Below, piece after piece: positions 27,850 to 45,668 of a DNA stretch of 64,000 nucleotides; within the stretch, counting starts at the first letter, position 1; each line of letters starts with the position of its first letter. Location of the stretch: positions 1 to 64,000 of the forward strand of contig JALHNJ010000009.1 of the NCBI GenBank assembly GCA_022843585.1. The letters are read 5' to 3'. The notes under the pieces are model-generated. The model saw only the letters and a list, made by a program, of their open reading frames with translations, ran no database searches and had not been told where the DNA came from. The DNA comes from Chitinophagaceae bacterium (GTDB taxonomy: Bacteria > Bacteroidota > Bacteroidia > Chitinophagales > Chitinophagaceae). Both the position numbers and the translations under genes were made by a program.

Positions 27850-28746
27850 TTAAAACTTTAGTTTTTCGTCTTTATCCCAAATTCCCCAATAAGCACCTAC
27901 TGTTCCTTCTGCACCCACCTTCCAGCTTTCATCAAAAGAAGAAAAATAAAATACCGGTATATCTTCATTGGCACTCCAAAGCTGTGTATTGATAAAATAA
28001 TCCCTTGCACTCTGTGCAGATGGTTGTGCCCCTTTAGTATTTTCACCCTGGCTGGGCCATCCTGTTTCGGTAATGATTACTTTTTTCCCATTGGCAGCCT
28101 GCGTGGCCTGCTGGTACATTTGCTGCATGTGCGCCAACGAATGTTCAAATGGGCAGCCTTCCCAAAATGGATAGCAGTTGCATAATATCACATCACAGGC
28201 TTCGGTAATTTTTGTGCGATGGGTAAACTCATAGTAAGCATCCACATATCCAACAGGTATCTGCGATACCCGGCTTTTTACTTCATTGATAAACCACAGC
28301 AATTCTTCTTCACTTAAATCATTTCTATACATTACTTCGTTACCAACAGCGGCTATATCAACTAACCCTTCATTGGCTAGTTGTATTAATCCTTCCACCT
28401 CCCGGCGATTTATTTCCGCATCATTACCCAGCCAGGCGCCCACTAATGTTTTTATACCGAGCTCCTTTGCAACTTTTGGTATCAGTTCATTACCATCGGT
28501 GCAGGAAAAAGAACGTACCCATTTTGTATGGGGTCTTATGATTTCCATTCGTCGACGCACCTGTGCTTCAGAAATGATATCACCGGGCTTTTGTCCTTCT
28601 TCATATAAACTGAAACAAAAACCATGTACTCCCGTTTGTAAAATTTCTGCAAATAAGTTAGTAAGGCCTTCTTCTGTTTCACCAGCCAGGTAATTTACTT
28701 CTGCTAAATTCTGTGATGAAAAAATATTTTCTTTGCGGTATGACAT
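27850..28746 (-). CDS. GH17-like beta-glucanase, cytoplasmic (second GH17 module)
   Basis: 298 residues from the ATG at 28746 (MSYRKENIFSS); the longest frame would start inside the upstream gene. No signal peptide, so cytoplasmic. It has acid/base Glu137 in AAVGNEVMYR and nucleophile Glu227 in ITETGWPS, with NCYPFWEG and FDESWKVG as in the GH17 domain of the adjacent fusion protein. The two align end to end and are clearly paralogs. It probably trims imported beta-1,3-oligoglucans alongside the phosphorylase. Gap to the upstream fusion gene is 13 bases. Confidence 0.85.
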   Translation of the reverse strand: MSYRKENIFSSQNLAEVNYLAGETEEGLTNLFAEILQTGVHGFCFSLYEEGQKPGDIISEAQVRRRMEIIRPHTKWVRSFSCTDGNELIPKVAKELGIKTLVGAWLGNDAEINRREVEGLIQLANEGLVDIAAVGNEVMYRNDLSEEELLWFINEVKSRVSQIPVGYVDAYYEFTHRTKITEACDVILCNCYPFWEGCPFEHSLAHMQQMYQQATQAANGKKVIITETGWPSQGENTKGAQPSAQSARDYFINTQLWSANEDIPVFYFSSFDESWKVGAEGTVGAYWGIWDKDEKLKF

Positions 28747-28759
28747 AAAATTGTATTGC

Positions 28760-31126
28760 TTAGTTAAACTTAAATTTTTCGTTTTCATCCCACAGGCCCC
28801 AAGAGGTTCCTGCCCATCCTTCAAAATGGATTTTCCACGACTCATCGAAGGAGGAGAAGTAAAACAGTTTTACTCCCGCCTGTGCCACCCATAATTGTAC
28901 TTCTGCATAATACAGCATTTGATTTTCTTTAGAAGGCACTGCATCACCAACTACCTGCCCGCTGGAGGGCCAGCCTGTTTCTGTAATAATTACTTCCTTT
29001 CCATTGGCTATAGCATTTACTTTACTATACATTTCCTGTAGGTAAATACCTGCATGTTCAATATGAGCACCTTCCCAAAACGGATAACAGTTGATTAATA
29101 ATTTGTCGCATGCCTGTACCAGTTTAGGATGGCTGATTAGTTCACTATATATGTCAATACAAGATACCGGTACACCACTGGTATTTTTCTTTACTTCATT
29201 AATATAACCGATTAAAACATTTTCGTCCTGGTCGCCTCTGAATAAAACTTCGTTACCCACTGCAGCCATATCTACTACTCCTTCCTTTACAAGTTTTATT
29301 AAAGACTGTATTTCCCTTTCATTCTGCTTGTTGTTCTTATCAATCCATGCACCCATCAATACTTTGAATCCCATTTTTTTGGCAATGGCCGGAATCAGCT
29401 CATAACCGTTTGTAGTGGAGAATACCCGAACCCATTCAGTATGCCCGGCCAGTACCTTTAAGCGTTTTATAATTTGTTCTTCTGTTATCTGGTCGCCGGG
29501 ATTTTGATCTTCTGTAAATACCGTGAAGCAAATGCCATGCATACCATTATTAAATATTTCGCCAAATTTCGTTTTGATAGATTCCCCTTTCATTATTTCA
29601 AAATCAATACCGGTATTAACATAAGCGGGATATTTTTTCAACAGCATAGGCTTGGTTAATCCTTTAAAATTTAAGCCTGCAAATACACTAGTAACGCCGT
29701 ATCCAGAAGGTTTTGGTGCTTTTCTTCTGGCGAGTTCAGCACTTATTTCTCTTGATTTTTCTTCGGTAACATCATAATTTCTCATAACCCAAATAGCAGC
29801 TAATGTTCCTAAAACGGGAATAGCAGAAAAGAATAATCTTAACTCAAACATCGTTTCATAAGTTTGGGTTGCTGCGCCAGATTTAAAATGTATGATGGAT
29901 AATATTGCCCCGCTTAAAAGACCTGCGATAGCTAACCCAAACTTTACCATCCACCAGTAAATAGCCCCAAAAATCCCTTCTCTTCTTTTCCCGGTGTTTA
30001 ATTCGTCAATATCAATTACATCTGAAGTCATTGACATCATCAACGTAAATAAACTACCTATTCCAAAAGAAATAAAAGGCAAAGCAAACAAAAACAAATA
30101 AGGCTTTCCCGGAACAAATAAAAACAATAATGAAACGTAACCCAGTATTGAAATTCCCTGCGACCATATAAAAGCTTTCTTTTTGCCCATCACCTTCGAC
30201 ATTCTGGCCACAATGGGAATAATTAATATGGTTGTAAATATGGCGCCCACACATCCAAATAAAGTTGGCCATACTCCCTGACCATCACCATTAAACAAAT
30301 AATATTTTATAATGAAAAATGAAAAACCTGCGGTAGTATTAAAGGCATTGAAAATAAAAAAGGTGGCGATACATAATTTTCTGAAAGGAATAATTTTCAA
30401 CGCTTCTTTAAAACCCTGAATAATTAAATCAAAACTTCTGCCGGCATTTTTTAAGTTTAAAGGTTCGTAGTTTTCATTTAACGTGGATTTACTTTTTATA
30501 AAAATACCAGGAATGACAGCTAATATGGTACATATTATTGCAACATAAACGGCCAAGGTTCGGGTGGCTTCTTCTGCTGATGGAAAGAATTTAACATCAT
30601 ACATAATTACCCAAAGCCAGGGTGCAAACACCCAGGCCAGCTGACCTATTAATTGTGAAACGGCCATGATACTGGTTCTTTCATGAAAGTCGTCACTCAT
30701 TTCATAGCCCATGGCAACATAAGGCACACTAAAAATTGTGATGCCTAAATAAAAAATCAAAGAAACCAACAGGAAATAAGTAAAATTATAATTCACTGAA
30801 TTTTCGGGATATAACTGCCACATGAAAGCAAAAGAAATTCCCGTTAGTATACCGCCTACAATAACATATTGCCTTCTTCTTCCCCATTTAGATTTGGTAT
30901 TATCTGTAATAAAACCCATAATGGGATCTGTAATCGCATCAAAAATTTTAGGAATAAAATAAATAATACTAAGCATCCATCCCGGAAATCCTAACTTATC
31001 AATTAATATAACTATAAAAATTCCTAATACCGCTGGAAACAGTTGATTAGCCAACATCCCTAATCCAAAAGCAACTTTTTGCCCCATGGGAACTTTGTTT
31101 CTTTCACTGGTTTGATAATTTGCCAT
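28760..31126 (-). CDS. MFS sugar transporter fused to a GH17 domain
   Basis: 788 residues in one uninterrupted frame. Residues ~1-455 are a 12-helix GPH/MelB-type cation:sugar symporter, with FDAITDPIMGFITDNTKSKWGRRR in the first half and a matching second half. A basic linker (~456-500, ARRKAPKPSG) leads to a complete GH17 domain (~500-788) with acid/base Glu626 in AAVGNEVLFR and nucleophile Glu716 in ITETGWPSS. In GPH transporters both termini are cytoplasmic, so the hydrolase should face the cytosol at the exit of the transporter. Import and cleavage of beta-1,3-oligosaccharides by one polypeptide is the natural inference. It starts 19 bases after the phosphorylase stop. Confidence 0.9.
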   Translation of the reverse strand: MANYQTSERNKVPMGQKVAFGLGMLANQLFPAVLGIFIVILIDKLGFPGWMLSIIYFIPKIFDAITDPIMGFITDNTKSKWGRRRQYVIVGGILTGISFAFMWQLYPENSVNYNFTYFLLVSLIFYLGITIFSVPYVAMGYEMSDDFHERTSIMAVSQLIGQLAWVFAPWLWVIMYDVKFFPSAEEATRTLAVYVAIICTILAVIPGIFIKSKSTLNENYEPLNLKNAGRSFDLIIQGFKEALKIIPFRKLCIATFFIFNAFNTTAGFSFFIIKYYLFNGDGQGVWPTLFGCVGAIFTTILIIPIVARMSKVMGKKKAFIWSQGISILGYVSLLFLFVPGKPYLFLFALPFISFGIGSLFTLMMSMTSDVIDIDELNTGKRREGIFGAIYWWMVKFGLAIAGLLSGAILSIIHFKSGAATQTYETMFELRLFFSAIPVLGTLAAIWVMRNYDVTEEKSREISAELARRKAPKPSGYGVTSVFAGLNFKGLTKPMLLKKYPAYVNTGIDFEIMKGESIKTKFGEIFNNGMHGICFTVFTEDQNPGDQITEEQIIKRLKVLAGHTEWVRVFSTTNGYELIPAIAKKMGFKVLMGAWIDKNNKQNEREIQSLIKLVKEGVVDMAAVGNEVLFRGDQDENVLIGYINEVKKNTSGVPVSCIDIYSELISHPKLVQACDKLLINCYPFWEGAHIEHAGIYLQEMYSKVNAIANGKEVIITETGWPSSGQVVGDAVPSKENQMLYYAEVQLWVAQAGVKLFYFSSFDESWKIHFEGWAGTSWGLWDENEKFKFN

Positions 31127-40356: not shown

Positions 40357-42510
40357 TTAATGTGAAATCATAACTCTTTCTGTGTCTATAACCGTTCCAT
40401 TATTTTCCATTAAATGCACTATGTAAACTCCATTGCCATTTCTCCTCAAATCAACATTAATTGGAGTATATGCACCTGACATAATATTTAAAGAACTGTA
40501 AACTAATTTTCCTGCAGCATTATAAATAGCAAGTCTTCTTGGGGAAAGATTATTTACATCACTATAGTATCTAACCTGAAATTGTCCTGAGGACGGATTG
40601 GGGTATATGAATAGTTTCTTTCTTTCAACACCTGATACTACTACATTATTCGAAGTACTCGTACATCCGTCTATACTGGTAAGTTTTAATGAATAAGTTC
40701 CTAATCTATCCACATCTACAACAACAGAATTACTTGTTTGTCCGGTTAACAATATTCCGTCCCGATACCATTCAATTGAATTACCTGCACTCGCTGTCGT
40801 TGTAATTGTAACTGTTTCCCCCGGTTGCAATGTATTGTTTGGTACTGCTACAATAAATGGTGTAGCCGGAATTGTTTTAGTAGATACTACTATCTCAGAT
40901 CTTTGACTTTCGCAACCTAACGTATTGGTTTGACTAACATAGTAACTTCTATTTCCTACTAAGTTTGTAGCTGGTACCGGAGCAGACAGATTTCCTGTTC
41001 CACCAGTTGAAACAGTATACCATTTCAGCGTATTACCGCTAACACCTTGTGCAGTTAATGCCTGAGCAGTAGCATTTAAACAATAATTGATAGGGGTACT
41101 TGCTACCGTAGGTGCTGCCGGTGTTGGATTAACCGTTACTGCTATCAAAACTCTGATACTCTCTATCATTGCAGCACTCATCTGGCTAACATAATAATTA
41201 GTTGTTCCGATAGTTGCTGTTGAAGGTGTTGGGGCAGTTGTACTTCCTGTTCCACCTGTTGGTACTGTATACCATCTTAATGTGTTCCCAGGTAGTGTTG
41301 TTGCAGTTAAGCTAGAAGCTAATGCAAACTGACAATAGGTAACTGGCGTAGTTACTACTGGTGGAGGAGTAACAGGTATTGCACCAAACTTCACATCATC
41401 AAAATAATAGGTTCTCTCTCCGGCTACGGCTCCCGTTGTTCCAAAGTTGAAGAAGATCGATGCTTTGTTATAGCTAAACGAAAGGTTGATCGCCGCTGTA
41501 CCAGTTGCCTGGTTGGCAAAATTAAATTCTAAGGTCTGCCAGCTTCCCGCTGTTCCCGTAAACATCGTTTCCGTCTCTACCGATTTTGTCGGGTCTGTTT
41601 TGTCTTCTACTTTTAAGCGTATCGGTATATTGGTATGGGGACTCCATACTCTTATATTCATTTTCTGCTCCGAAGCTGTAAATGGAATATTTGTTGCAAA
41701 GCCTGTTTGTACATTCGCTACTACTGCCGTTATCGTTGCTCCTGCCCACAACTCGGCTGTTGACGTCTTGATCACTTTACCTACTTTATTGGTCGGCTGT
41801 GTAGGATCTGTTTCCACAGTTGCCTGTTCTGCTCCGCCAAAACCTACCAACCCATAATTTACTGTCGCATCATCAAAGGTTACTGGTAAGTTCATTTGTG
41901 TTAAGCCACCGCCACCACCGGCTGCACCAAACTTCACATCATCAAAATAATAGGTTCTCTCTCCGGCTACGGCTCCCGTTGTTCCAAAGTTGAAGAAGAT
42001 CGATGCTTTGTTATAGCTAAACGAAAGGTTGATCGCCGCTGTACCAGTTGCCTGGTTGGCAAAATTAAATTCTAAGGTCTGCCAGCTTCCCGCTGTTCCC
42101 GTAAACATCGTTTCCGTCTCTACCGATTTTGTCGGGTCTGTTTTGTCTTCTACTTTTAAGCGTATCGGTATATTGGTATGGGGACTCCATACTCTTATAT
42201 TCATTTTCTGCTCCGAAGCTGTAAATGGAATATTTGTTGCAAAGCCTGTTTGTACATTCGCTACTACTGCCGTTATCGTTGCTCCTGCCCACAACTCGGC
42301 TGTTGACGTCTTGATCACTTTACCTACTTTATTGGTCGGCTGTGTAGGATCTGTTTCCACAGTTGCCTGTTCTGCTCCGCCAAAACCTACCAACCCATAA
42401 TTTACTGTCGCATCATCAAAGGTTACTGGTAAGTTCATTTGTGTTTGAGCAAATGAAGGAGAGACAGAAATAAGAAATAGGCTAAAAAAAAGAAGAATTA
42501 ACTTTCTCAT
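40357..42510 (-). CDS. T9SS-secreted glycan-binding protein with duplicated CBM-like module
   Basis: 717 residues. A signal peptide ends SFAQ. Two CBM-like jelly-roll modules (~22-200 and ~203-381; each starts QMNLPVTFDDATVNYG and ends YYFDDVKFGA) appear identical in protein and DNA. Then come two CHU_C-type Ig-like repeats (NTLRWYTVPTGGTG and NTLKWYTVSTGGTG), a PKD/Ig-like module (~560-635) and a type A T9SS sorting domain (KLFIYPNPSSGQFQVRY ... GVYIVHL). It should be displayed at the surface and bind beta-glucan. First gene of the minus-strand locus, divergent from its likely regulator. Confidence 0.85.
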   Translation of the reverse strand: MRKLILLFFSLFLISVSPSFAQTQMNLPVTFDDATVNYGLVGFGGAEQATVETDPTQPTNKVGKVIKTSTAELWAGATITAVVANVQTGFATNIPFTASEQKMNIRVWSPHTNIPIRLKVEDKTDPTKSVETETMFTGTAGSWQTLEFNFANQATGTAAINLSFSYNKASIFFNFGTTGAVAGERTYYFDDVKFGAAGGGGGLTQMNLPVTFDDATVNYGLVGFGGAEQATVETDPTQPTNKVGKVIKTSTAELWAGATITAVVANVQTGFATNIPFTASEQKMNIRVWSPHTNIPIRLKVEDKTDPTKSVETETMFTGTAGSWQTLEFNFANQATGTAAINLSFSYNKASIFFNFGTTGAVAGERTYYFDDVKFGAIPVTPPPVVTTPVTYCQFALASSLTATTLPGNTLRWYTVPTGGTGSTTAPTPSTATIGTTNYYVSQMSAAMIESIRVLIAVTVNPTPAAPTVASTPINYCLNATAQALTAQGVSGNTLKWYTVSTGGTGNLSAPVPATNLVGNRSYYVSQTNTLGCESQRSEIVVSTKTIPATPFIVAVPNNTLQPGETVTITTTASAGNSIEWYRDGILLTGQTSNSVVVDVDRLGTYSLKLTSIDGCTSTSNNVVVSGVERKKLFIYPNPSSGQFQVRYYSDVNNLSPRRLAIYNAAGKLVYSSLNIMSGAYTPINVDLRRNGNGVYIVHLMENNGTVIDTERVMISH
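41380..41902. repeat. Direct repeat, copy A (523 bp)
   Basis: Identical by eye to 41923-42445 over 523 bases, at an offset of 543 bases. Encodes the second CBM-like module of the T9SS protein. The first mismatches bounding it are at 41379/41922 and 41903/42446. Confidence 0.9.
41923..42445. repeat. Direct repeat, copy B (523 bp)
   Basis: Partner of 41380-41902. It encodes the first CBM-like module, directly after the signal peptide. The 20-base spacer between copies encodes a glycine-rich linker (AGGGGGL). Confidence 0.9.
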
Positions 42511-42911: not shown

Positions 42912-45668
42912 ATGGCGCAGGATAAAAACAACCGCCTTTATGTAGCTAATAATGAAGGGCTGTTGGTGTTTGATGGTACAAATTGGCAGGCATACCCAGT
43001 CCCTAATAAAACTATTCTGCGTTCAATTGGTTTTGGCCCGGGCCAAAAACTATTTGCTGGTGCTCAGGATGAAATTGGATATTTTGCCCCAGACAATTCA
43101 GGTCGTCTGCTTTTTACTTCTATAAAAAATCAATTACCCCTCAGCGACAGGATCTTTTCCGATGTATGGGAATTGGAAGTGGCTGGTAACGACGTTTTCT
43201 TCCGTACAAACGCTAAGATTTTTAAACTCAGTGATGAAAAATTTACGGTTTACCCGGCCCCATCCAACTGGATTTCGCTTCATAATGGCCAAGGCAGCAT
43301 TTTTGCACAAGATGATAAGGCCGGACTGATGCGCTACGAAAATGGCAATTGGAAAACTTATATTCAAAAGGATTTACTGCCGCCCGGTTTTTTTGTAACA
43401 GATATTGCTCCCTATAAAAAAGATACCAGTCTGGTGAGTACGGCTGGCCATGGTTTGTTTTTAATGATCGAAAACAAATTGCTTCCATTCCGATTTAGCT
43501 ATACTGATTTTAATGCCTTACAGCATATTACCTCACTATCCGTTCTTAATGATTCAACTTTTTTAATCGGTACTTATTTTAACGGAGTATACCACATCAG
43601 CCGGAAGGGAAGAGTACTGGAAAATGTATCTACCAAAAACGGGTTGCCTAATAACACGGTGCGTTTTGTATTTGATGATAAAAATGGCAATGCCTGGGCA
43701 GGGTTGGATAATGGCCTTGGCTTTTTTTCTTACAATAATTCTATACGTCATATTAACCCTCCTGCATTTAATAATGGTGCCGGTTATAATGCAATTGCAC
43801 AAGGCAGCGATTTATACTTTGCACTTTCTACGGGGCTTCATTGGCTCCCTTTAGAATCACAGGCTAATCTTAGTGCCATAACCAGCCAGCCGCAATTAAT
43901 AGTTAGCGGTCTCACCTGGAATATATCGGCTATAAACAACCAATTACTTGCCGGGCGGGATGATGGTTTATGGAAAATCAACAATCGACAGGCTACAATT
44001 TTTTCAGCTTCATCCGGCTATTGGAATGCTAAACTATTTCCGGGTGCACTACCAGAGCAAGTAGTAACTGGCAACTATACAGGTATTGAGAAATATACAT
44101 TGGTGGATGGAAAATTAACCAGGCTTGGGCAAGTAGGAAATTTTTCAGAGTCCAGCCGTTATATAGAAATGGATAATAAAAATATATGGGTATCACATCC
44201 CTACAGAGGAATATATAAAATTGATCCGGGTACCAATGCTGTTACTTTATTTACACAAAAAGATGGACTCCCTGCTGACCTCGACAACCATGTATTTAAA
44301 ATAAAAAGCAAGATTGTGTTTGCAACTTCGGCAGGTATTTATGTGTATGATGCCGCTAGTAATAAAATAATACTTGCAAAAGAGTTTGAGGCCTTGTTTG
44401 GAAAATTACCTATCCGTTATTTAAAAGAAGATGAGAAAGGCAACATCTGGTTTGTGCAGGAAAAAATGGTGGGAGTAGCCGATTACAGTACTGGCAATCC
44501 TGCTATTCATTATATACCTGAACTAAAAAATAAAATACTCAGCGGTTTTGAAAATATTTTCCCTTACAACACCCGAAATATTCTGATAGGTGGCGAAGCT
44601 GGCTTTTATAATATTGATTATGAAAAATACCGGGAAAGCATAAAACCTTTTTCTGCCTATTTAACCAGGGTAAAAACCATTAGCGGCGGCGATAGCATAT
44701 TGTATGGAGGTTACGTTTTTGACAGTAGTACCATTAGTAACAAAATTGAAATCCCCTTTAAGCAAAATTCATTGCAGTTTGCTTATGCCGCATCTGTTTT
44801 TGGGCAACACCCCGGGCTGGAGTTTAGCTATTATTTAGATGGCTTTGATGAAGGATGGAGTGATTGGGGCAATAAATTAGAAAAGGAATATACTAACCTG
44901 CCAGCTGGTTCCTACATCTTTAAAGTTAAAGCCAGAACTAGTCCATCTCATGAATCAACAGTTTACGAATACGCTTTCAATATTAAGCCACCCTGGTACG
45001 AAACCATCTGGGCTTATGCTTTATATGTTTTATTAGCCGGGTTAGCTCTTTTTGCGATTTTAAAATACCAGTCGAAAAGACACCGGAAAAAATTAGCCGC
45101 TAAGCGACTGGCCGACAAATTGCGGTTTGAAGAAGAGCAACAGCAAACAGCTTACCGCCATCAGTTGGAATTGGAGAAATCAGAAAAAGAATTAATTGGA
45201 TTACAAAATGAAAAATTAGCCGCTGAGATAACACATAAAAATGCCGAGCTGGCCAGCGCTACCATGAACCTGGTACAGAAAAAAGAATTTATTCTGAAAT
45301 TAAAAGCAGAGTTGCAGCAATTACAAAAAGCGGTGAAAGTGGGAGATGATAACCCGGAATTGAAAAAGGTTTTAAAAGCATTGTCCGAAGAAGAAAAGTT
45401 GGATGAAGAGTGGGAACATTTTTCGCACCATTTCAACAGTGTACATGGAGATTTTTTAACCATTTTAAAAAATAAATTTCCGTCGTTAAAGCCACATGAG
45501 CTACGACTTTGTGCTTATTTGCGCATGAATTTAAGCAGCAAAGAAATTGCACCACTGATGAGTATTTCCGTTCGGGGTGTTGAAATAAGCCGGTATAGAT
45601 TGCGTAAAAAAATGGTATTGCCTACAGAAATAAACCTTGTACAATATTTATTGGAGCTTAAGGCATAA
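42912..45668 (+). CDS. Transmembrane Y_Y_Y/LuxR-type sensor-regulator of the glucan locus
   Basis: 918 residues from the first ATG. The frame stays open to 42717, and 42786-42839 encodes a signal peptide (LLLLFLVVVWAISKSFAQ), so the real start is upstream at a non-standard codon or across a homopolymer error. Order: periplasmic beta-propeller repeats (~1-590), a Y_Y_Y domain (~615-690, ending IKPPWYETIW), one TM helix (~697-717), a coiled coil (~725-815) and a C-terminal LuxR-type HTH (~850-918, LKPHELRLCAYLRMNLSSKEIAPLM). There is no kinase or receiver domain; it is a one-component regulator sensing a periplasmic ligand. Its divergent position implies control of the beta-glucan genes. Confidence 0.85.
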   Translation: MAQDKNNRLYVANNEGLLVFDGTNWQAYPVPNKTILRSIGFGPGQKLFAGAQDEIGYFAPDNSGRLLFTSIKNQLPLSDRIFSDVWELEVAGNDVFFRTNAKIFKLSDEKFTVYPAPSNWISLHNGQGSIFAQDDKAGLMRYENGNWKTYIQKDLLPPGFFVTDIAPYKKDTSLVSTAGHGLFLMIENKLLPFRFSYTDFNALQHITSLSVLNDSTFLIGTYFNGVYHISRKGRVLENVSTKNGLPNNTVRFVFDDKNGNAWAGLDNGLGFFSYNNSIRHINPPAFNNGAGYNAIAQGSDLYFALSTGLHWLPLESQANLSAITSQPQLIVSGLTWNISAINNQLLAGRDDGLWKINNRQATIFSASSGYWNAKLFPGALPEQVVTGNYTGIEKYTLVDGKLTRLGQVGNFSESSRYIEMDNKNIWVSHPYRGIYKIDPGTNAVTLFTQKDGLPADLDNHVFKIKSKIVFATSAGIYVYDAASNKIILAKEFEALFGKLPIRYLKEDEKGNIWFVQEKMVGVADYSTGNPAIHYIPELKNKILSGFENIFPYNTRNILIGGEAGFYNIDYEKYRESIKPFSAYLTRVKTISGGDSILYGGYVFDSSTISNKIEIPFKQNSLQFAYAASVFGQHPGLEFSYYLDGFDEGWSDWGNKLEKEYTNLPAGSYIFKVKARTSPSHESTVYEYAFNIKPPWYETIWAYALYVLLAGLALFAILKYQSKRHRKKLAAKRLADKLRFEEEQQQTAYRHQLELEKSEKELIGLQNEKLAAEITHKNAELASATMNLVQKKEFILKLKAELQQLQKAVKVGDDNPELKKVLKALSEEEKLDEEWEHFSHHFNSVHGDFLTILKNKFPSLKPHELRLCAYLRMNLSSKEIAPLMSISVRGVEISRYRLRKKMVLPTEINLVQYLLELKA

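Follow-up and report, generated by a model that had tools for sequence, protein, structure and literature searches.

The fusion gene and its neighbourhood

The window, i.e. the whole analysed stretch of 64,000 nucleotides from a Chitinophagaceae bacterium, carries on its minus strand a single open reading frame of 788 amino acids (P0001, 28760..31126) with an ATG start and zero internal stops. Pfam and NCBIfam profiles, alignment, an AlphaFold model and fold comparison divide it into an MFS_2/GPH-like symporter (residues about 1-470) and a GH17 domain (about 500-788). The Pfam MFS_2 profile is matched by residues 20-455 along profile positions 2-427 of 427 (E 2.4e-69). The Pfam GH17 profile is matched in its last quarter only, by residues 711-787 (E 1.1e-7), with a PF00332 score of 32.2 bits, above the gathering score of 28.2; the remainder of the barrel is evident from alignment with RmBgt17A and from fold comparison. 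The uninterrupted frame had been proposed in a sequence-only reading, which gave no strand, and is confirmed here. The order MFS to GH17, in a single ORF located in a laminarin-type cluster, is that of an FbGH17B-type fusion.

A free GH17 gene (P0002, 27850..28746, minus; ORF, Pfam, tree and alignment) starts with an ATG at 28746, after the fusion stop and 13 bases on, exactly as had been read earlier. It is followed after 2 nt by P0003 (26924..27847, minus; Pfam), a second, divergent GH17/GH2-like barrel with a GH17 Pfam score of 25.8, below the cut-off of 28.2. In many loci the free GH17 is likewise followed by a P0003-like gene. On the other side, 19 nt upstream of the fusion, lies a GH149 beta-1,3-glucan phosphorylase (P0004, 31146..34571, minus; NCBIfam NF058639, 1699.6 bits, cut-off 1150). 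Inspection by eye disclosed no export signal in GH149 and no signal peptide in P0002. Further upstream on the minus-strand side are a GH16 beta-glucanase with a lipoprotein-like start by eye (P0005, 34711..35673, minus; Pfam), a 517-residue ORF with an Ig-like domain, a 1038-residue GH-containing protein (P0006, 37056..40172, minus) and a T9SS-tailed protein in which profile scans found Ig-like and weak CBM matches. Family scans of the genes around the cluster revealed no SusC/SusD.

In P0006, a signal-peptide-like start (by eye) and a GH2_C-like GH barrel at about 20-420 are followed by a 600-residue C-terminal extension (Pfam, genome search, model). Matches were found in 23 of 198 genomes of the order, 20 of them full length in one ORF, one split over two contigs and two covering the N-terminal part only. 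Stand-alone GHs of this type (ORFs of 432-459 aa) occur in loci L070, L075, L046 and L081. Pfam and NCBIfam gave nothing credible for the C-terminal part, which was modelled with a mean pLDDT of 45.5; by eye it resembles an outer-membrane barrel, and the model gave no confirmation. If the extension is such a barrel, the cluster would hold a second enzyme-membrane fusion.

The T9SS-tailed protein (40357-42510, minus) includes two 300-nt stretches that are 100% identical (41380-41679 and 41923-42222) and 543 nt apart, a repeat that either arose by recent duplication inside the gene or was produced by the assembly. In divergent orientation to the cluster, a Reg_prop/Y_Y_Y protein is encoded at 42912-45668 (plus). 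Its C-terminus is weakly like response-regulator ends, and judged by sequence it is a possible sensor for the cluster.

Structure and residues of the two halves

The transporter half (29717..31126, minus; alignment, charge analysis, AlphaFold model) shows a full-length PF13347 match and twelve transmembrane helices in the model, followed by a C-terminal helix, as expected of an MFS_2/GPH symporter. The score against the GPH profile TIGR00792 reaches 195.7 bits over the full profile length, below its cut-off of 231.35 bits, and P0001 is therefore named GPH-like; with this wording, the GPH type and the twelve helices assigned to it by the earlier reading stand. The model of this half aligns with MFSD2A and MelB at TM-scores of 0.76-0.84, normalised by target length. 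P0001 Asp63, Asp67 and Lys395 align with MelB Asp55, Asp59 and Lys377, which we take to be cation-site residues, and are conserved among the aligned fusions. MelB Asp19 and Asp124 correspond in the alignment to Gln28 and Ser133. Since the sugar-site aspartates of MelB are not kept, the sugar can be suggested from the gene neighbourhood: this half would be a cation-coupled symporter for short beta-1,3-gluco-oligosaccharides, presumably working in the direction of import.

The AlphaFold model of P0001 (pTM 0.61) is composed of 12 long membrane-type helices, a short helix at 455-469, a low-confidence linker at 471-482 and the barrel. The hydropathy profile alone does not separate all twelve helices. 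Across 55 fusions, with loop limits and side labels set by hand, loops on the N-terminal side hold a mean of 31.5 Lys+Arg in 188 positions, compared with 3.2 in 69 positions on the opposite side. Counter to this bias, two of the seven inner segments (loops 4-5 and 10-11) carry a net negative charge. Past the last helix, the most hydrophobic 19-residue stretch (mean 1.09, at 615) falls within the GH17 barrel of the model. In MelB-like proteins both termini are inside. Charge bias and model together predict a C-in topology with GH17 in the cytosol, as the first reading had assumed, and such an arrangement implies uptake first and hydrolysis afterwards. Because the linker is of low confidence and pTM is 0.61, no fixed arrangement of the domains can be proposed, and the model does not support GH17 being docked on the pore in a defined way. 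The placing of the enzyme at the pore exit, where it would keep intermediates from the cytosol, as suggested in the first reading, is hypothetical.

In the GH17 half (28760..29629, minus; alignments), alignment, model and fold comparison reveal a (beta/alpha)8 barrel with two catalytic glutamates, as in GH17 enzymes. The TM-score to RmBgt17A is 0.87-0.88, normalised by target length. Glu626 and Glu716, both named by the earlier reading of a complete GH17, align with the two RmBgt17A glutamates (numbered Glu99 and Glu189 in the consulted part of PMC11005184), with the active-site mutant chain 4wtr deviating at the second. They are invariant across 55 aligned fusions, and both catalytic glutamates occur in all 98 fused-type and all 136 free GH17s of the alignment.

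A difference between fused and free enzymes was observed at the position of MlGH17B Tyr136, a residue tied to transglycosylation and replaced by Met in FbGH17B according to the available text of PMC11005184. Free-type GH17s carry Tyr (121/136) or Leu (15/136) there. Among the 98 fused-type domains, Leu is the most frequent (55), followed by Met (13), Phe (9), His (9), Gln (7) and Tyr (5). P0001 has Phe629 and so differs from an MlGH17B-type transglycosylase at this position, and its free neighbour P0002 has Tyr. As fused GH17s are mostly without the transglycosylation tyrosine, a tethered hydrolase beside a free transglycosylase is suggested; this is a correlation from one residue, weakened by Tyr in 5/98 fused-type and Leu in 15/136 free GH17s. 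Concerning two other positions, the excerpted discussion and conclusion of PMC11005184 disagree on whether FbGH17B retains Trp191 and Glu192; in our alignment Glu192 is kept in 234/234 GH17 rows and Trp191 in 233/234.

Distribution and histories of the two domains

The sequence-only reading had considered transporter-hydrolase fusions uncommon, and the genome scans disagree, since the MFS-GH17 fusion is widespread. In the scan of titled genomes, 75 of the 80 best loci among the matches listed contain a fused ORF, a proportion biased towards fusions because these loci are the top matches. Fusions in these 80 loci come from Flavobacteriaceae, Weeksellaceae, Saprospiria, Cyclobacteriaceae, other Cytophagia and Chitinophagaceae, and those from Balneolaceae and Burkholderiales are found in MAGs only. 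Altogether, 107 fetched loci, some of them from named strains, present the same domain order in an uninterrupted fused ORF; 99 with distinct transporter halves comprise 97 of A-type and 2 of B-type (types defined by the trees below). Within 58 relatives, own genome counted, the full fusion was found in five, and three more (G010, G045, G050) have the transporter and an adjacent separate GH17 gene. With types assigned by HMM score, a match at 1e-60 was obtained in 46 of 395 phylum genomes. The transporter is of A-type in fused form in 13 and unfused in 6, of B-type in fused form in 2 and unfused in 21, and more distant in 4. The same assignment applied to 396 order genomes yielded 54 with a match, of which 6 were left unclassified. 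In the other 48 the A-type is fused in 13 and unfused in 16, the B-type is unfused in 18, and one genome has both unfused types.

A free GH17 is located within 400 nt downstream in 81 of the 97 distinct A-type fusions, is missing in 10, and in 6 there is no sequence at that place. Of the 27 unfused A-type transporters, 14 have no same-strand GH17 within 400 nt downstream. In Burkholderiales/betaproteobacterial MAGs (L092, L095, L104, L107, L099) the gene order is changed, with the free GH17 and the P0003-like gene upstream of the fusion. A single in-frame stop parts the transporter from the free GH17 in 13 distinct unfused loci, six of A-type (L006, L080, L087, L091, L108, L109) and seven of B-type, where occasional fusion could occur by readthrough, judging from the sequence. 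In L192 (G732) the transporter is followed by an in-frame GH17 split by a further stop. The HMM scores of both pieces lean slightly to the free-type, and the gene is possibly decaying or else mis-sequenced.

Trees were built separately for the two domains. MFS matches with ≤400 bits or <420 residues and GH17 matches with ≤200 bits or <230 residues were dropped, and identical domain sequences were merged (MFS rows from 185 to 173, GH17 rows from 259 to 235). The tally excludes L192 (G732), G492, G668, G451, G533 and G544. Careful trees are subsamples of 59, 65, 40 and 60 rows, partly random, and the careful MFS tree omits L002 on account of its long branch. The quick MFS tree divides its 173 distinct rows into 124 A-type (97 fused, 27 unfused), 45 B-type (43 unfused, 2 fused) and 4 distant. 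Support for the A-type clade is 100 in the quick tree, and 100/100 for the A/B split in the careful one (65 rows). With 27 of the 124 distinct A-type transporters lacking a fused GH17, the fusion is not required for transport.

Changes between the fused and unfused states number at least 20 in the 173-row tree, 13 of them forced by starred branches. Among the A-type transporters, the careful tree requires 14 such changes (13-14 in bootstrap trees); firm branches alone force 8-9 of them, and a single loss of the GH17 half is thereby ruled out. The trees indicate instead that this half has been lost repeatedly, which counts against its being indispensable. The ancestral state is uncertain because the deepest A-type branch of the careful tree is unfused.

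The quick GH17 tree (235 distinct rows) is comprised of a fused-type clade, in which 98 of 98 domains are fused, and a free-type clade of 137 with one fused member, that of G098 (L129). Support for the fused-type clade is 97 in the quick and 99/90 in the careful tree (59 rows), and adding L129 to it was rejected by the AU test (p 0.001), the AU-test groups here and below having been picked after the trees were seen. Both halves of P0001 are placed inside clades of other fusions. Its GH17 is in the fused-type clade and P0002 is outside, which rules out a recent joining of this copy with its neighbour.

Where an unfused A-type transporter is followed by a free GH17 (13 cases), the latter always belongs to the free-type clade of the quick tree, with L006 lacking a firm place in the careful one. 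Ten of ten further GH17 matches outside the tree score as free-type by HMM, for which the control on fused-type and free-type sequences was in-sample. Tails lost from transporters were thus not retained as free neighbouring genes. When the GH17 half alone was searched in 98 genomes (those with a match in the phylum or order set; every candidate was scored, compared with about two per genome earlier), 75 matched at 1e-30, and every free match was in a typed locus except one in G639. This one (L240, ORF 1547-2956, minus) is a divergent, lipoprotein-like free GH17 of 470 residues. It scores 258 bits against the fused-type HMM and 240 against the free-type, and is attached to the fused-type clade by a branch of 4.7 (support 98/92); a tree with L240 outside is equally good (p-AU 0.52). 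It could either have split off from the fused-type clade as a free gene or lie outside that clade.

Some proteins combine the two types. G109 and G410 have a fused-type GH17 on B-type transporters that are not sisters in the MFS trees, and G098 has a free-type GH17 on an A-type transporter. By the tree evidence, partners have been exchanged between the halves, and the transporter half has been replaced at least once. The halves of ordinary fusions also have, as far as the sequences tell, conflicting histories: forcing the MFS clade of P0001 to stay intact in the GH17 data lowers the log-likelihood by 403 units (p 7e-55, 40 rows), and the reverse constraint, the GH17 grouping in the MFS data, lowers it by 564 (p 8e-6, 40 rows).

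Proposed working and comparison with known fusions

We consider P0001 to be, probably, an FbGH17B-type transporter-hydrolase fusion in a cluster for utilisation of a beta-1,3-glucan (laminarin or similar), in which imported material is hydrolysed by the tethered cytosolic GH17. Domain order, intact catalytic and cation-site residues, charge-bias topology, neighbourhood and conservation, as seen in sequence or model, are in accordance with this. Outside the cell, GH16 (P0005) and perhaps P0006 would release short beta-1,3-gluco-oligosaccharides, which the MFS half would import coupled to a cation. As the transporter has 12 helices with both ends inside, the GH17 would be tethered in the cytosol, where on its flexible linker it may hydrolyse oligosaccharides on arrival, possibly with a kinetic gain. 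Some of these oligosaccharides would be converted to glucose 1-phosphate by the cytosolic GH149, and the free P0002 is probably a transglycosylase rearranging chains.

That the ORF arose from a sequencing or assembly error, such as a missed stop or frameshift, had been raised as a possibility. A lost stop could mimic a fusion at loci such as the 13 in which one in-frame stop parts the two genes; however, recurrence of the fused ORF in many loci, 97 distinct for A-type, across Bacteroidota, Balneolota and Pseudomonadota and with a GH17 clade of their own, leads us to reject this reading as practically negligible. It is also very improbable that GH17 is on the non-cytosolic side, with cleavage before uptake. 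The wording of section 14 in the accessible text of PMC6246565 favours it, and it is contradicted by the charge bias, by the MelB-like fold with 12 helices and no extra helix in the model, and by GH149 and free GH17 without an export signal by eye. That the fused GH17 is a transglycosylase, lengthening or branching imported oligosaccharides, seems unlikely. RmBgt17A, the best-matching solved GH17, is a transglycosylase, and the FbGH17B module is, in the available text of PMC11005184, 53% identical to the transglycosylase MlGH17B; against this are Phe629 at the Tyr136-equivalent, the tyrosine in just 5/98 fused-type domains, and glucose released by FbGH17B (PMC6246565, text available in part).

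Much closer to even, and only slightly on the doubtful side, is the explanation that the fusion just sets a 1:1 ratio and brings the enzyme to the membrane, without hand-over from pore to active site. The low-confidence linker and pTM value agree with it, as do the repeated loss of the GH17 half and a variable gap (21 to 66 residues in 107 fused ORFs) between the two profile matches. In contrast, a GH17 subclade that is almost solely tethered suggests that tethering matters for that enzyme. We tentatively suggest, as a rather improbable model, a tether-dependent GH17 subfamily that exists only as an importer tail (one divergent case aside), has shed the transglycosylase tyrosine and has spread by swapping partners. 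The tail would work like a one-way valve by hydrolysing every imported oligosaccharide, with transglycosylation left to the free paralog and phosphorolysis to GH149. Laminarin is a major algal carbon store, and import and cutting in one protein offer a testable case of transport-metabolism coupling. Natural fused/unfused pairs, some one stop codon apart, provide ready comparisons on whether tethering pays.

In the literature searched, which left most subscription journals outside, no study on evolution of the MFS-GH17 fusion was found. Compared with the reports found, the domain-level history and the residue split at the Tyr136 position are additions, and the range of the fusion is extended to Saprospiria, Cytophagia and, in MAGs, Balneolaceae and Burkholderiales.

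MelB and MFSD2A share the MFS_2 fold with P0001, and unlike P0001 their chains have no enzyme domain. P0001 has the MelB-type cation-site Asp pair but lacks the sugar-site Asp residues of MelB. MlGH17B, described in the consulted part of PMC11005184 as a free cytosolic beta-1,3-glucanosyltransglycosylase of Muricauda, has its tyrosine matched in P0002, whereas in the fused domain of P0001 it is replaced by Phe629. In Muricauda, the GH17B gene adjoins a separate MFS gene (PMC13188888, as excerpted). As the sequence-only reading had suspected, a similar protein exists in marine laminarin-degrading flavobacteria: the sections available of Unfried et al. 2018 (PMC6246565) describe FbGH17B (FORMB_24740), an MFS-GH17 fusion of Formosa sp. 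Hel1_33_131 and of a kind common in marine Flavobacteriia. Its module converts debranched laminarin oligosaccharides to glucose and is inactive on branched laminarin (same sections), and the effect of fusion on activity is described as not known in the text at hand of PMC11005184. According to the part of PMC10108472 available, most expressed variant-1 laminarin PULs of active bloom MAGs have at least one GH17-MFS fusion, the same fusion as in P0001 but in marine MAGs, and with no treatment of topology, residues or domain history in that part; the wording on SAR92, Luminiphilus and SAR86 loci, listed next, is ambiguous between fusion carriers and just variant-1 loci. By its published description, as far as accessible, FbGH17B resembles P0001 in the N-terminal 12-helix MFS, the C-terminal GH17 and the laminarin cluster, and the A-type clade of P0001 includes Formosa MAG and Polaribacter loci (L064, L082, L103). 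P0001 differs in its Chitinophagaceae host, with GH149 directly upstream and the free GH17 paralog directly downstream, and is thus a further example of the known FbGH17B-type fusion, here in Chitinophagaceae.
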